From positions 1-32,460 of the IMG/VR virus record IMGVR_UViG_3300030099_001308: 32,460 nucleotides of DNA, one strand, 5' to 3'. This document shows, one piece after another, positions 8,681-16,439 of this stretch (positions are counted from its first letter, which is position 1; the number at the start of each line of letters is the position of its first letter). The DNA comes from a virus. The position numbers and the translations under genes were made by a program. The notes beneath the pieces are model-generated. The model was not told where the DNA came from, ran no database searches, and saw only the letters and a program-made list of their open reading frames with translations.

Positions 8681-8711
8681 TTGACAAACCATGTTCACAT
8701 AGTAACATGGT
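8681..8711 (+). promoter_or_regulatory. Host-type early promoter overlapping a palindromic operator
   Basis: A perfect -35 box TTGACA (8681-8686) and a weaker -10 TAACAT (8703-8708) 16 bases later form a sigma70-type promoter candidate. The same bases hold an inverted repeat, ACCATGTT (8688-8695) and AACATGGT (8704-8711) with an 8-base centre, so a dimeric repressor bound there would cover the -10 and the spacer. It lies upstream of the first early gene. This is the natural place for a lysis-lysogeny switch; the binding protein is not identified. Confidence 0.5.
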
Positions 8712-8737: not shown

Positions 8738-8741
8738 GTTT

Positions 8742-10919: not shown

Positions 10920-11216
10920 ATGGCAAATTCTTATCCAATCTGGTGCAAGATAGATTCTTGTGCCTATGCTAATCATGGTAATGGTACAGGAAACAAAAGT
11001 TTTGGAATTAAAAAACATTCTGATACAGAAATAAGAGTAGGATCTAGTTCAAAAAACTCTCATCATTTTCTGTCTCATCGTACAACGTGCAGGGATCTTC
11101 CTAATGGTGATCGAAGTTTTCATTTTTATGTTGATAATCAACTTTTTAAATCTGCTTTACTTAAATCAGGAGAACAGGAATTAAGTGAAGTAAAAGTTTA
11201 TTTTGATCTTGCATAA
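10920..11216 (+). CDS. Small early hypothetical protein
   Basis: 98 residues with its own leader motif. It starts ANSYPIWCKIDSCAYANHGN and has a beta-rich look (KSFGIKKHSDTEIRVGSSSK, SFHFYVDNQLFKSALL), with three Cys and several His but no clear zinc motif. A long hairpin follows. No family recognised. Confidence 0.7.
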   Translation: MANSYPIWCKIDSCAYANHGNGTGNKSFGIKKHSDTEIRVGSSSKNSHHFLSHRTTCRDLPNGDRSFHFYVDNQLFKSALLKSGEQELSEVKVYFDLA

Positions 11217-11240: not shown

Positions 11241-11292
11241 AACCCTTGGAACATGGTATAATATTCGTATGTTTCAAGGGTTTCTTTAATTT
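11241..11292 (+). terminator. Terminator with long stem
   Basis: AACCCTTGGAACAT (11241-11254) and ATGTTTCAAGGGTT (11269-11282) pair over 14 bp with one mismatch; the loop contains TATAAT. A T-rich tail (TCTTTAATTTTT) follows. It ends the 10920 gene. The AACATGGT in the 5' arm repeats the right half of the operator at 8704-8711. Confidence 0.75.
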
Positions 11293-11333
11293 TTATTCTC
11301 AGTATTTATTTTATTTTATTTTATACAGCAGAT

Positions 11334-11375
11334 CCATTCTTTAATTTTATTCTCAGGGATGTAATTAAAGGATGG
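11334..11375 (+). repeat. 13-bp inverted repeat before the integrase
   Basis: CCATTCTTTAATT (11334-11346) and AATTAAAGGATGG (11363-11375) are complementary except for one position. It sits directly before the first CCCGAAAACT repeat. Upstream is a short TTTTA pentamer run (11304-11324). It may be an integrase or repressor site or an RNA hairpin. Confidence 0.45.
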
Positions 11376-11376
11376 A

Positions 11377-11447
11377 CCCGAAAACTTGGCAGGATGCCCG
11401 AAAACTTTCTTGCACAAAGAGAGTTTGTAGCGTACCTCCCGAAAACT
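11377..11447 (+). repeat. Three direct repeats CCCGAAAACT upstream of integrase
   Basis: Copies at 11377-11387 (with an extra T), 11397-11407 (extra T) and 11438-11447. Start-to-start distances are 20 and 41 bases, close to two and four helical turns, so all three face the same side of the DNA. Two more copies lie inside the integrase gene (11746-11755) and the small RHH-like gene (12202-12212). They look like protein-binding sites. Confidence 0.65.
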
Positions 11448-11454
11448 ATTTACT

Positions 11455-11478
11455 CTCTCTAATTTCTCAATTGAAAGG
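11455..11478 (+). promoter_or_regulatory. Leader motif copy 6
   Basis: CTCTCTAATTTCTCAATTG then AAAGG, with one extra T in the middle, 5 bases before the integrase ATG at 11484. It follows the last CCCGAAAACT repeat by 7 bases. Confidence 0.6.
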
Positions 11479-11483
11479 ACATT

Positions 11484-12059
11484 ATGCCACAAAAACTCCC
11501 TTTTACACAGGACCAGATCCTTGCTATCCGATCTAACCTACATGGTAGAAACCAACTTTTATTTTGTGTTCATGTAGACACTTGTCTCAGGTGTGTTGAT
11601 TTAATAAATCTTAGGGTAAAAGATTTAATTGATTCTCATGGTAGAGTTCGCAAGAACTTAGAAGTCAAGCAGAAGAAAACAAGTAGACGAGTTTCATGTA
11701 GACTATCAGATTTCACTATGGAACTGGTAGATCGATGGGTGAGAACCCGAAAACTAGAAAGCAATGATCCCTTGTTCCCCAGTAGAGCAACGGACAAGCT
11801 GGGTAATCTGAAACCTCTTAGTGATAAAATGTATCGGAATATAGTAAAAGAAATAGCCTACAAAGCAGGATTAGATTGGGAACTATATTCTAGTCATAGC
11901 TTACGTAGGACAAAACCTAGTATTGTATATAGTAAAACTAGGGATATAGAAACGTGTAGACAACTATTAGGTCATTCTAATGTTGCATCTACTTCTCTTT
12001 ATTTAAATATTAGTGCAGAGGATGCTTTGAACAAAGCGGAAGCACTTAACATAATGTAG
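11484..12059 (+). CDS. int: Minimal tyrosine integrase
   Basis: 191 residues, only the catalytic domain of a tyrosine recombinase. The active-site set is complete: Arg36 (DTCLRCVDLINL), Lys in VKQKKTSRR (~62-66), His138 and Arg141 in HSLRRTKPS, His164 in LLGHSN, and nucleophile Tyr173 in STSLYLN. The arm-binding and core-binding N-terminal domains of lambda-type integrases are absent; the size is like FimB/FimE. Short integrases in T7-like marine phages mediate insertion into host tRNA genes. It is flanked by CCCGAAAACT repeats and followed by a terminator and a small regulator-like gene, so the phage is probably temperate. Confidence 0.9.
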   Translation: MPQKLPFTQDQILAIRSNLHGRNQLLFCVHVDTCLRCVDLINLRVKDLIDSHGRVRKNLEVKQKKTSRRVSCRLSDFTMELVDRWVRTRKLESNDPLFPSRATDKLGNLKPLSDKMYRNIVKEIAYKAGLDWELYSSHSLRRTKPSIVYSKTRDIETCRQLLGHSNVASTSLYLNISAEDALNKAEALNIM

Positions 12060-12065
12060 GAAGTT

Positions 12066-12090
12066 GAGGGGTGTTTCTCACGCACCCCTC
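12066..12090 (+). terminator. Terminator after integrase
   Basis: GAGGGGTG (12066-12073) and CACCCCTC (12083-12090), a perfect 8-bp GC-rich stem with a 9-base loop, followed by a pyrimidine tail TCTCTCT that also forms the start of leader motif copy 7. Confidence 0.75.
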
Positions 12091-12091
12091 T

Positions 12092-12117
12092 CTCTCTAAT
12101 TCCCAACTATAGAAAGG
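12092..12117 (+). promoter_or_regulatory. Leader motif copy 7
   Basis: CTCTCTAATTCCCAACTATA then GAAAGG. This copy is the most T7-promoter-like (TAAT ... ACTATAG). Unlike the others it is 41 bases away from the next start codon (12159), so the GAAAGG here cannot be that gene's ribosome site. This argues for a transcriptional role. Confidence 0.6.
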
Positions 12118-12144
12118 ATCTATAGGTAGGATCTAAACCATAGG

Positions 12145-12160
12145 CATATAGGAAAATAAT
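12145..12160 (+). promoter_or_regulatory. CATATAGGAAAATAAT element, copy 1
   Basis: This 16-base string occurs identically before the capsid gene (26253-26268). Here it ends within the start codon of the RHH-like gene. It may be a second class of phage promoter (TATAGGA initiation block) or a strong ribosome site (AGGAAAA). Confidence 0.45.
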
Positions 12161-12332
12161 GCAAGATGAATATAGAAATAGCGTAATAAACGTAGTGCTG
12201 TCCCGAAAACTTGTAAGAGAAACTAAAATGTTTATCCTGCAAAATCAGTTAGATATACCATTAAAAACATTTGTAGAGCAAGCGATTACAGAAAAAATAA
12301 AAAAGATGGATAGAGGGGTTGACAAGGAATAA
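12159..12332 (+). CDS. Small ribbon-helix-helix-like protein, possible repressor
   Basis: 57 residues from ATG 12159 to TAA 12332. The pattern fits a ribbon-helix-helix DNA-binding fold: a strand (SVINVVLSRKLV, residues ~8-19), helix A (RETKMFILQNQL), a turn (DIP) and helix B (LKTFVEQAITEKIKKMD). Such proteins (Arc, MetJ types) are dimers that insert the strand into DNA and bind short repeats. It stands beside the integrase, has its own upstream motif, contains a CCCGAAAACT repeat in its own coding sequence (12202-12212), and ends in a perfect hairpin. A repressor or directionality role is inferred. Confidence 0.6.
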   Translation: MQDEYRNSVINVVLSRKLVRETKMFILQNQLDIPLKTFVEQAITEKIKKMDRGVDKE

Positions 12333-12339
12333 TCCTTGT
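12322..12339 (+). terminator. Hairpin spanning the RHH gene stop
   Basis: ACAAGGA / TCCTTGT (12322-12328 and 12333-12339), perfect 7-bp stem whose ATAA loop contains the end of the stop codon. There is no T run, so it is either a weak terminator, an mRNA-stabilising hairpin or an operator. Confidence 0.4.
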
Positions 12340-12441
12340 GCCAAGGTGTCTTTTCATATCTACGAACTTCCAGTTTACATCTCAAGCGACAACTAAGTTT
12401 CCGCTTTTGCCATTACTGCTAGTTCGACATTACTTCACATA

Positions 12442-12474: not shown

Positions 12475-12744
12475 ATGGGGCAAAATACTTATGCTAGTAG
12501 AGCATTAGCACATAAGAGGGTACGCAAGAATAAATTAATCTCTAGAGAACAAGTTAACAGAGCAGTAGAAGAATACAAAAGTAAAGGTGGAACCATTACT
12601 AAACTTCCTACTTTATCTGATGATTTCAGTCAAAAGTTAGTTTCTGGATCTGAGTATTACAAAGTATATAGCTGGACCTTTGATAGTGTTAGAAAACATG
12701 GGGTAGTTAAGCAAGACCATTTAAACAATGAGGATATAAAGTGA
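12475..12744 (+). CDS. Small hypothetical protein
   Basis: 89 residues with an AAAGAGGG ribosome site. The start is basic (ASRALAHKRVRKNKLISREQ), and the middle EYKSKGGTITKLP resembles a short segment I recall from small regulatory-looking proteins in marine phages ahead of the RNA polymerase gene. No named family. The stop overlaps the next ATG. Probably the first gene of the operon that runs into RNA polymerase. Confidence 0.65.
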   Translation: MGQNTYASRALAHKRVRKNKLISREQVNRAVEEYKSKGGTITKLPTLSDDFSQKLVSGSEYYKVYSWTFDSVRKHGVVKQDHLNNEDIK

Positions 12745-12989
12745 AGTGGATTAGAGATCCTACTCACCATGTTACTTGTGTATGTAGAGCAGACGATCCT
12801 ATAACTGATTTCACTCATTGTAAGTTGTGTAAAAAGGAATTATGTAACTTAGATAAAGGATGGGATAGATGTTTTGATTGCTACAAAATTCCACTAGAGA
12901 AAGAGTTTATAAATTCCTATGAACAAGCAGGGTATGTAGTTACAAAACATGGTATTTTTTCTAAGAAAATGGAGATAGATGCATCCTAA
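12741..12989 (+). CDS. Cys-rich zinc-ribbon-like protein
   Basis: 82 residues. The N-terminal half holds Cys in C-V-C, H-C-K-L-C-K-K-E-L-C and R-C-F-D-C spacing, enough for one or two zinc sites. The C-terminal half is ordinary (INSYEQAGYVVTKHGIFSKK). It overlaps genes at both ends. A nucleic-acid- or protein-binding adaptor is likely in general terms; no specific function. Confidence 0.6.
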   Translation: MKWIRDPTHHVTCVCRADDPITDFTHCKLCKKELCNLDKGWDRCFDCYKIPLEKEFINSYEQAGYVVTKHGIFSKKMEIDAS

Positions 12990-13398
12990 AGATAGTGGTC
13001 AACTAACTGGTCGTGTAGCTGGTAGTAGACTTACTTGTGTAAGGTTCTCTCATAGAGACAAGAATGGAAGCAGAATAAACTTATATAAGTGTAGTTGTGG
13101 TAATTATAAAAAGTTGTATCAGCAAGCAGTTAATTCTTTAAATACAAAATCATGTGGGTGTCTTAAAAAAGAGCAAGACCCCCTTGTATACAAAAGGATG
13201 AGAAAGTTTGAAAAAAAGAGAAGAGAGAACCACCTCAAAGCTTGTACAGGTAGACCACCAAAGAACAAAGGTCAAAAGAGAGTAGATATATTAGTAGATG
13301 GTGAAATTAAACATAAGTTTGTACCAGCTAATGAAGTTGCTAAACATGACAAACAATTTATGAAGGATTTAACTGCTTTGTACTACACAGCAGTATGA
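12979..13398 (+). CDS. Phage zinc-finger protein of the SCGC type
   Basis: 139 residues. YKCSCGNYKKL and TKSCGCLKKEQ form the C-x-C-G ... S-C-G-C-[LK]-K-[KE]-E pair seen in many phage proteins, often N-terminal to HNH or AP2 homing endonuclease domains. No HNH or AP2 domain follows here; instead there is a basic tail with GRPPKNKG, an AT-hook-like core. Likely a stand-alone DNA-binding protein, possibly a remnant of a homing endonuclease. Confidence 0.6.
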   Translation: MHPKDSGQLTGRVAGSRLTCVRFSHRDKNGSRINLYKCSCGNYKKLYQQAVNSLNTKSCGCLKKEQDPLVYKRMRKFEKKRRENHLKACTGRPPKNKGQKRVDILVDGEIKHKFVPANEVAKHDKQFMKDLTALYYTAV

Positions 13399-13783: not shown

Positions 13784-13999
13784 ATGAGAGTTGAATCTAA
13801 ATGCCCACATTGTGGTAAGAGACATCTAGAAAACAGGGAACATTCTGGTACTAGTATTATTGAATGTTCTTGTAGTAATAAGTTTATTGCTATTGCAAGA
13901 ATAAATTTAGAAGTAGAAGCACTTAAAATTGTAGATGAACTAATTCTTGACAGGAAGTCTGGGAATTATGTATCAAAACGTACTGGAGAAACAGCTTAA
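13784..13999 (+). CDS. Small zinc-ribbon protein
   Basis: 71 residues with C-P-H-C-G-K-R-H and E-C-S-C-S-N-K-F, a typical four-Cys zinc ribbon, then a helical part (INLEVEALKIVDELILD). It overlaps the start of the RNA polymerase gene by 32 bases in a different frame. Function unknown; possibly a transcription accessory because of its position. Confidence 0.6.
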   Translation: MRVESKCPHCGKRHLENREHSGTSIIECSCSNKFIAIARINLEVEALKIVDELILDRKSGNYVSKRTGETA

Positions 14000-16439
14000 C
14001 CTTGAACTAGAAGGTAAAAGGTTAGGTCAAAAAAGATACCAGAGGGTTAGCAAGGAAGCTAAAGACCAAGAGTCATGGACTAGACTCCCCTCTGTACGTT
14101 ACATTATGTCAGAAGCAGTACAACCTATTTCTACTGCTTTTAGAAAATGGATAGATAAACGTAAAACTGGTAAACCAGCTTACGCTACTCACCTAATAGA
14201 AGTTGTTGAGTCTCTTGAATTAGAAGATGAAACAATAGCCTATCTAGCACTTATCTGTACGCTAGATGGTTTATCTCAATCCCATCCAGAATATCGTGTA
14301 GCAAGGACCATAGGTAATGCTATACAAGATGAACATAGGTTACGAACCTTTCGTACAGAGAATCCCAATTATTTTAAGAGGGTTTTAGAATCAGAACATC
14401 AGAAACGTAATCCAAGGTATAGACAAAAAAACGCTATGACTTGGTTGCTTTCTAGAAAGACCCAATTAAACCTACATGATCTTACATTAGAAGATGCTGA
14501 TAAGATTATGTTGGGTAAAATTCTAATTCATCTTATACACAGAGAAACTGGGTTAGTTAATGTAGTACCTAACTATGTCAATAAAAGAAAAACCATCAAT
14601 ATGTTGGTCCCTAATCCTTCTGCTCTTGAATGGATAGAGAAGCTGGAAAGACATAGGGAAAACATAGCTACTCAGTATATGCCATGTGTGGTAACACCTA
14701 GAGATTGGCAAGAGAAAACATTAGGTGGTGGTTATTACACTAGTCAACTAAAAGGACTACGTGCAATTAAGTTACATAAAAAAACAGGGTATCAAGATTT
14801 AGATAACGTAAGTATGCCCCTTGTGTATGATGCTTTAAATCAAATGCAGAGGACAGAATTTGCTATCAATATACCAATGTATGAGTTGATGCAAAAGGCA
14901 TACGATAGTGGTGCAGAGTGGGAAGGAATACCACCTAACAAACCTTATGATTTACCACAATGTCCTTACCCAGGTACACAAAAGAAAACTTTAACAGAAG
15001 AACAAAAAGAAGTATGGGAAAAGTGGGCTAAACCTTATGCCATGCTGATGAGAAAAAACAATCAGATGTATAGCAGAAGGTTGCAGTTTGTTAGAGGGTT
15101 GCAAATGGCTAAAGACTTAATGCAACACAAACAGTTTAATTATGTAGCCCAATGTGATTATAGAGGTAGATATTACCTCATGCACAACTTCTTACATCCC
15201 CAAGGTCCAGATTGGTCTAAATCCCTTCTACAAAGTGCAGTAGGTATGCCAGTAACAGAGGAAGAACAAGTAAATGCTTTGGCTATAGCAGGAGCAAACT
15301 TGTATGGGTTTGATAAAACCAATATGGAGAACAGAGTTAAATGGATTAACCACCATACTGATCAGATCATAGAGAGTGCTAAAGCACCTTTTGATTTTAA
15401 ATGGTGGACCGATGCAGATGAACCTTGGCAGTTTCTAGCATTCTGTAAGGAGTGGAGAAAGTACAAAACTAATGGACTAGGGTACAAGAGTTTTTATTGG
15501 GTACATACCGATGGTAGTCAAAATGGTATCCAGCATTACTCCGCTATGTTAGGTGATGAAGAAACTGCTCACTATTGCAACCTTACCTATACCAATAATC
15601 CACAAGACTTATATCAAGAAGTAGCAGATGAAGTTAAAACCATACTGAAAGAATCTAATGAACCTTTAGCAAGGGATTGGTTGAAGAGTGATCTTATAAA
15701 TAGATCCATGCTGAAGAAAATAGTTATGACCTTTCCGTATGGGGGTACACCTCACATGTTTACCGAATACATAAATGGTTATGTAATAGAATATGCAGGG
15801 GAAGTAGAGTGGCCTTTTAACAATGGTGTAAGAGTAACAGATGCATTCAAAGAATCACGTTGGTTAGTAAGTAAAATACAAGATGCACTTAAAGTAAAAG
15901 TAAAAGCAGCCACTAATGGAATGCAATGGATTAAATCAGTAGCAAAACAAATTATAAAACAGAAAGTACCAGTACAATGGAGAACCCCAAGTGGTTTTGT
16001 AGTAGTACAAAATTATCCAGAGGTTCGATCAAGAAAAATAAGGACTGTACTGGATGGTAAATTAATCATGGCTAATGTTCAGGGCAACCCAATAGGTAGT
16101 AAGCAGGATAGTTGGAAAACTGGTAACGCTACACCACCTAATTTTATTCATAGTATGGATGCTAGTCATCTTACTCTTACTTTACAGAAATGTAGAGAAC
16201 ATGATTTAAATCAAGTGACTATGATACACGATAGTTACGGAAGTTTAGTGGCACAAATGCCATTAATGCAGAAACTCTTACGTGAATCCTTTGTTGAAAT
16301 GTATGAACAATGGGATGTATGTGAAGAGTTTCTAAAGGATGCCTCAATGGTAGTACCAGAGAGTGCATTACCAAGTCCACCAGAGAGGGGGAACTTGGAT
16401 ATTAATCTGGTGAGGGAATCACCTTTCTTTTTCGCATAG
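13968..16439 (+). CDS. rpo: T7-like single-subunit RNA polymerase (gp1)
   Basis: 823 residues from ATG 13968 (T7: 883). Motif A: Asp515 in DGSQNGIQHYSAML. Motif B: NRSMLKKIVMTFPYGG with Arg579 and catalytic Lys583. TPPNFIHSMDASHL precedes motif C, Asp755 in MIHDSYGS. The C-terminus ends FFFA, like the FAFA 'foot' of T7. The specificity-loop region (after VPVQWRTPSGF) differs from T7, so promoters must differ too. It transcribes the middle and late genes. The gene overlaps the zinc-ribbon gene upstream and is followed by replication genes in T7 order. Confidence 0.97.
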   Translation: MYQNVLEKQLNLELEGKRLGQKRYQRVSKEAKDQESWTRLPSVRYIMSEAVQPISTAFRKWIDKRKTGKPAYATHLIEVVESLELEDETIAYLALICTLDGLSQSHPEYRVARTIGNAIQDEHRLRTFRTENPNYFKRVLESEHQKRNPRYRQKNAMTWLLSRKTQLNLHDLTLEDADKIMLGKILIHLIHRETGLVNVVPNYVNKRKTINMLVPNPSALEWIEKLERHRENIATQYMPCVVTPRDWQEKTLGGGYYTSQLKGLRAIKLHKKTGYQDLDNVSMPLVYDALNQMQRTEFAINIPMYELMQKAYDSGAEWEGIPPNKPYDLPQCPYPGTQKKTLTEEQKEVWEKWAKPYAMLMRKNNQMYSRRLQFVRGLQMAKDLMQHKQFNYVAQCDYRGRYYLMHNFLHPQGPDWSKSLLQSAVGMPVTEEEQVNALAIAGANLYGFDKTNMENRVKWINHHTDQIIESAKAPFDFKWWTDADEPWQFLAFCKEWRKYKTNGLGYKSFYWVHTDGSQNGIQHYSAMLGDEETAHYCNLTYTNNPQDLYQEVADEVKTILKESNEPLARDWLKSDLINRSMLKKIVMTFPYGGTPHMFTEYINGYVIEYAGEVEWPFNNGVRVTDAFKESRWLVSKIQDALKVKVKAATNGMQWIKSVAKQIIKQKVPVQWRTPSGFVVVQNYPEVRSRKIRTVLDGKLIMANVQGNPIGSKQDSWKTGNATPPNFIHSMDASHLTLTLQKCREHDLNQVTMIHDSYGSLVAQMPLMQKLLRESFVEMYEQWDVCEEFLKDASMVVPESALPSPPERGNLDINLVRESPFFFA

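Follow-up and report, generated by a model that had tools for sequence, protein, structure and literature searches.

Integrases are common in marine T7-like phages, and how their use is decided is an open question. The gene of one such enzyme, int, lies in the 32,460-base IMG/VR record analyzed here (the window, numbered from its first base), where the initial annotation had noticed five exact, same-strand copies of a 10-mer, CCCGAAAACT, around int. Is this cluster a genuine family of sites, and, if so, what would recognize it? All five copies were located, on the + strand and within positions 11377 to 12211. Three of them lie in the int leader (11281 to 11483, + strand) at 11377 to 11386 (S1), 11397 to 11406 (S2), and 11438 to 11447 (S3), corresponding to −107, −87, and −46 from the int ATG; the leader steps of 20 and 41 bases had been reported correctly for the window. 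The fourth copy (S4; 11746 to 11755) is at +262 inside int (11484 to 12059, + strand), where it reads through the codons xCC CGA AAA CTx, and the fifth (S5; 12202 to 12211) is in an ORF for a 57-amino-acid protein (ORF57; 12159 to 12332, + strand), in the codons TCC CGA AAA CTT, both in the genes to which they had been assigned. The annotation had seen no other copy in the window, and indeed neither strand of the whole record contains a further one, whether exact or with 1 mismatch; the reversed string, used as a control, had 0 occurrences genome-wide. The absence of CCCGAAAACT from the rest of the genome is uninformative by itself, since the expected count is ~0.01 (0.011 copies per record on the + strand and 0.009 on the − strand in a first-order Markov model). 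The informative features are clustering and conservation. Across 60 order-1 simulations, a stretch of 846 bases never contained any 10-mer more than 3 times, against 5 in the real record.

Conservation was assessed in seven relatives, all of them IMG/VR contigs. The same seven were retrieved by scans with the integrase, an integrase alignment, the RNA polymerase, and an RNA polymerase alignment, the last of which returned nothing beyond them when more distant relatives were sought in IMG/VR; a scan with ORF57 retrieved six of the seven. Integrase identity to the window is 93 to 99% in six relatives and 78% in L012, and the 8 genomes represent about three independent lineages, six of the seven relatives being close. 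Each of the 8 genomes contains 5 to 8 exact copies of CCCGAAAACT, all near int; none was found away from the int locus in the 8 records (up to 41 kb), and the reversed string had 0 occurrences in the relatives' records. Counting the 10-mer in the genome and its relatives thus upheld the idea of a real site family at int, present in every relative that keeps int and confined to that locus. Every one of the 46 copies points in the direction of int. They fall at ~11 different positions, with no antisense case (sign p ~0.001, a statistic that counts positions, which need not be independent origins). Near-copies are few (four with one mismatch, in L011 and L012, all sense), and degenerate or reversed copies are nearly absent.

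The sequence of the sites is kept in the relatives, whereas their spacing changes. S3 is the sole leader copy with a fixed position, at −46 from the int start in seven genomes and at −44 in L012, and S1 and S2 are kept together, as GATGGACCCGAAAACTTGGCAGGATGCCCGAAAACT, in L006, L008, L009, and L010. New exact positions occur at +308 in L012, at −72 in L011, and at −402 and −506 in L006, the surrounding leader being hypervariable. The annotation had proposed phased spacing on one DNA face. The spacings found in the relatives (11, 14, 15, 20, 26, 41, 42, 107, 110, and 136 bases) lack a 10.5-base periodicity (Rayleigh p ~0.65), indicating that the window's spacing by two and four turns does not hold in general, and helical phasing was rejected. 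An IMG/VR scan for other virus groups with a clustered pair of CCCGAAAACT returned just these phages and unrelated tandem repeats, and a literature search on the 10-mer returned unrelated work only.

The gene-internal copies S4 and S5 are identical in all eight genomes, including L012. Between the window and L012, the int genes are 71% identical at the DNA level and share 34 of 561 10-nt windows (6%), S4 among them. In L012, S4 is located at +259, and the neighboring residues differ on both sides (RT-RKL-ESN versus HA-RKL-QHD). ORF57, present in 8/8 genomes, is a conserved coding gene: its product is 62% identical to its L012 counterpart, with 31 identical residues and just 15 identical codons as a result of silent changes. 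CCCGAAAACT uses codons that this phage seldom employs: CGA makes up 7.6% of its Arg codons, GCC 6% of its Ala codons, and CCG 1.6% of its Pro codons. The extra copy at +308 in the L012 int gene is in a different reading frame and arose without a 10-base insertion, and two copies in the upstream GP88 gene of L006 are in two frames. Because coding copies are kept despite drift, with rare codons, and in more than one frame, the selected object is the nucleotide word. A peptide-level motif (RKL in three genes) was rejected in view of the two reading frames and the non-coding copies. From these comparisons of sequence, CCCGAAAACT is a real, selected nucleotide-level site family, of which the sites, their conservation, their orientation, their restriction to the int locus, and their frame independence are observed. 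In this small group of marine T7-like phages, it is probably the landing site of a regulator of integration.

The int leader of the relatives has a common order: a hairpin comes first, then a TTGACA box and the sites, and between these and the int start stand TCTCTCTAATT and a Shine-Dalgarno-like sequence. The hairpin (CCCTTGGAACAT..ATGTTTCAAGGG, followed by a T-rich tract; 11243 to 11280, + strand), read from the sequence, marks the upstream edge of the leader and is kept in L006, L008, L010, L011, and L012. The leader of the relatives begins with TTGACA, possibly part of an int promoter (P_int); this box is present in L006, L008, L010, and L011 and shifted in L012, with a fitting −10 sequence in some only. 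The window's own leader contains no TTGACA and no clear int promoter. S3 is followed by the CTCTCTAATT leader element. DNA between the leader sites is hypervariable, including the sequence 3' of S2: the window and L009 have 31 to 32 unrelated bases, and L012 has one base. In L006, L008, and L010, different small-ORF cassettes are found between two CCCGAAAACT pairs and, in a frame other than that of int, read into its start. Exchange also affects the gene slot upstream of int (10920 to 11216 in the window versus 3111 to 3770 in L012), which is occupied by a gene for 98 amino acids in the window and L010 and by the GP88 gene in L006, L011, and L012.

Our analysis tentatively favors, at somewhat less than an even chance, a reading in which one trans-acting regulator strictly recognizes CCCGAAAACT, the copies forming a small, stoperator-like oriented array in the int-ORF57 transcription unit. 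The regulator is probably phage encoded, and we infer that it would be a protein that binds CCCGAAAACT as DNA. The bound factor would stand in the path of the host RNA polymerase, and this roadblock would keep int transcription low, possibly along with that of early genes farther on. ORF57, which belongs to the int-ORF57 unit and itself has a site, would be a candidate autoregulatory binder. Its sequence (INVVLSRKLV..DIPLKTFVEQAI) resembles ribbon-helix-helix (RHH) proteins by eye, as the annotation had suggested. ORF57 had no family match in Pfam, NCBIfam, PHROGs, or PDB profiles, hhalign matched it to neither CopG nor NikR, and its AF2 monomer is a helical hairpin of two helices with no strand, although a monomer model says little about a fold formed by a dimer. 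The RHH assignment found no support in these searches; ORF57, which may still have a dimeric fold, is retained as a candidate binder of CCCGAAAACT. Profile searches of the early-region proteins returned no repressor family match. Small RHH proteins (pSM19035 omega, ParR/parC) have short asymmetric direct-repeat operator or centromere arrays near the gene of the small protein. The CCCGAAAACT array has the same general form and a similar location, but the RHH fold of ORF57 is without support, the spacing is irregular, and copies lie within genes.

Stoperators, at which a bound factor blocks polymerase, provide a precedent for a DNA roadblock, and strict, sense-only sites in a leader and within genes are to be expected of them. 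They are reported to have mostly the same direction with respect to transcription, some of them lying within genes that follow the repressor (PMC6550527). Stoperators of cluster A mycobacteriophages (L5 and Bxb1, with the repressor Rep) are short, asymmetric, multicopy, and orientation biased, some being in transcribed genes (PMC6550527, PMC9283540), and the CCCGAAAACT copies share these traits. The CCCGAAAACT copies differ from stoperators in sequence and phage family, and the profile searches of the early-region proteins identified no Rep homologue. Several points count against the roadblock, among them the small number of independent lineages, the equal fit of sense-only placement to a site in RNA, and the lack of a clear int promoter in the window. 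The candidate ORF57 has no detectable DNA-binding fold; repressor operators usually vary more than the near-invariant CCCGAAAACT sites, which are also more invariant than stoperators; and stoperators are spread along the genome, whereas the 5 to 8 CCCGAAAACT sites are at the int locus only. The sites form a fixed set that can be counted and whose sequence is known, and this gives direct access to the binder and to what it does to int and to the phage RNA polymerase.

A wider version of the roadblock, which we consider rather unlikely, is that the array serves in lysis-lysogeny control, the bound factor blocking the host RNA polymerase on its way from the early promoter (8.7 kb) to the gene of the phage RNA polymerase (13.9 kb). 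The likely early promoter, TTGACA-16-TAACAT (8681 to 8708, + strand), is upstream of the whole early region and is conserved in L010 and diverged in L012. The T7-like RNA polymerase gene (13947 to 16439, + strand; PF00940, E=7e-94) is downstream of the site array; its product is ≤33% identical to those of named phages, and the record is that of a T7-like phage. If this version were true, one site cluster would both limit the integrase and prevent the lytic switch, and stoperator-type immunity would occur in a marine T7-like phage, a group in which no lysogeny switch is established. The T7-like cyanophages P-SSP7 and S-TIP37, marine like this phage, also have a tyrosine integrase, and their integration was shown without stable lysogeny, according to the sections of PMC8776855 on these phages, which mention no such repeat array.

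The sense-only placement of CCCGAAAACT fits a site in RNA equally well. A protein or host small RNA might recognize CCCGAAAACU in the int-ORF57 mRNA and thereby control translation, decay, or termination, a reading that we regard as possible but clearly less probable than a DNA roadblock with int-ORF57 autoregulation, because the latter has a precedent and the phage encodes no complement. All copies are sense and apparently within transcripts. The copy fixed at −46/−44 lies shortly before the CTCTCTAATT element and the ribosome-binding region of int, and near-copies are found at the int start codon. Predicted accessibility of the leader copies exceeds that of 10-mers with matched GC content (ranks mostly ≥0.9, some lower), but this comparison is confounded by their AT-rich setting, and the gene-internal copies are not predicted to be accessible in most genomes; accessibility favors an RNA site in the leader alone. 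The + strand of the phage contains 0 8-mers of AGTTTTCGGG, so that a small RNA would need to be of host origin; a phage-encoded antisense small RNA was rejected on this ground. No match to a known RNA family was found in Rfam.

The annotation had also offered arm-type sites for recombination, favoring a separate DNA-binding partner; arm-type or accessory sites would assemble an intasome with such a partner of the domain-poor integrase. Tyrosine integrases such as those of lambda and L5 usually have arm-type sites made of direct repeats of ~10 bp adjoining the integrase gene, and the CCCGAAAACT copies cluster around int. Int is a 191-amino-acid tyrosine recombinase with XerA/XerC/XerD profile matches and the pattern R..H-x-x-R..H..Y, its catalytic residues R36, H138, R141, H164, and Y173 being invariant in the integrase alignment. 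As the annotation had stated, it has no obvious arm-binding domain: the catalytic domain (PF00589, E=5.2e-23) covers residues 8 to 177 of 191, and neither an N-terminal arm-binding nor a core-binding domain was found. A pattern scan of GTDB genomes detected no relatives of int, and a whole-genome search detected short recombinases 32 to 45% identical to it in Alphaproteobacteria. None of the latter has CCCGAAAACT-type repeats, indicating that the repeats are not part of this recombinase type as such, and no repeat array was found in other short-recombinase phage records (Ssp-JY41 and two gut clones). The sites span 836 bases, lie partly inside int and ORF57, vary in number and spacing, and are all in one orientation. 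No attP core was found in the window, and two small orders of Alphaproteobacteria, when searched for attB with DNA of the locus, yielded AT-rich matches only; both tests are weak, and the two orders do not establish that attB is absent. For P-SSP7 and S-TIP37, the corresponding section of PMC8776855 places attP downstream of int as a match to host tRNA-Leu; no such match was found here, and the window contains no tRNA. Since the alphaproteobacterial relatives lack the repeats, the sites extend into genes over 836 bases, and no core was found, arm-type sites are unlikely.

Iterons, i.e., plasmid-style replication or partition sites for an initiator or centromere protein, are very unlikely. They were suggested by CCCGAAAACT in direct repeats of 21 to 22 bp beside Rep_3 initiator genes in two plasmid-like loci of Rhodobacteraceae, L134 of Sulfitobacter (1949 to 2001) and L105 of Paracoccus (2385 to 2416). 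Such a pair occurs, however, in 1 of 395 Rhodobacteraceae genomes, and the query selects tandem repeats, so that coincidence is likely; no Rep gene was recognized among the window proteins scanned, and the phage copies are inside genes and irregularly spaced. The CCCGAAAACT pairs in genomes have no clear recurrent neighbor gene. Least likely of all is a fast-spreading neutral micro-repeat or a recombination linker left by small-cassette exchange in the int leader, as the cassettes of L006, L008, and L010 might suggest, given that synonymous drift has not erased the coding copies, that the new coding copy of L012 came without an insertion, and that the orientation is strictly one-way, with degenerate or reversed copies nearly absent.

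Several further observations concern the early region. An inverted repeat, CCATGTT-N8-AACATGG, is located at the early promoter (8681 to 8710), in and just after its spacer, and is found in L010 as CCATGTGCATATAATAACATGG; it is a candidate for a classic operator. A hairpin between int and ORF57 (GAGGGGTG..CACCCCTC, 12066 to 12090) has two-sided changes in L012 that keep the pairing (GGGGCAAG..CTTGCCCC). The stem of an inverted repeat 3' of ORF57 (TTGACAAGG..CCTTGTGCCAA, 12319 to 12344) varies among the relatives, with pairing largely kept. An early protein of 89 amino acids (12475 to 12744) weakly matches the RNA-polymerase-binding domain of SutA (E=0.001, which does not reach the curated cutoff), and another of 139 amino acids (12979 to 13398) has a partial match to HNH-endonuclease proteins, covering a portion of them (phrog_374, E=8e-13), and is a further candidate DNA binder. 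Terminator-like hairpins number 10, compared with 2.3 expected. The leader element TCTCTCTAATTCTC, the commonest 10- to 13-mer of the genome, occurs at 8741, 9795, 10124, 10366, 10893, 11457, and 12093, mostly 27 to 31 bases before early-gene start codons and usually right after a hairpin (8714, 10095, 10333, and 10775), and it may be an RNA processing mark or a boxA-like signal.
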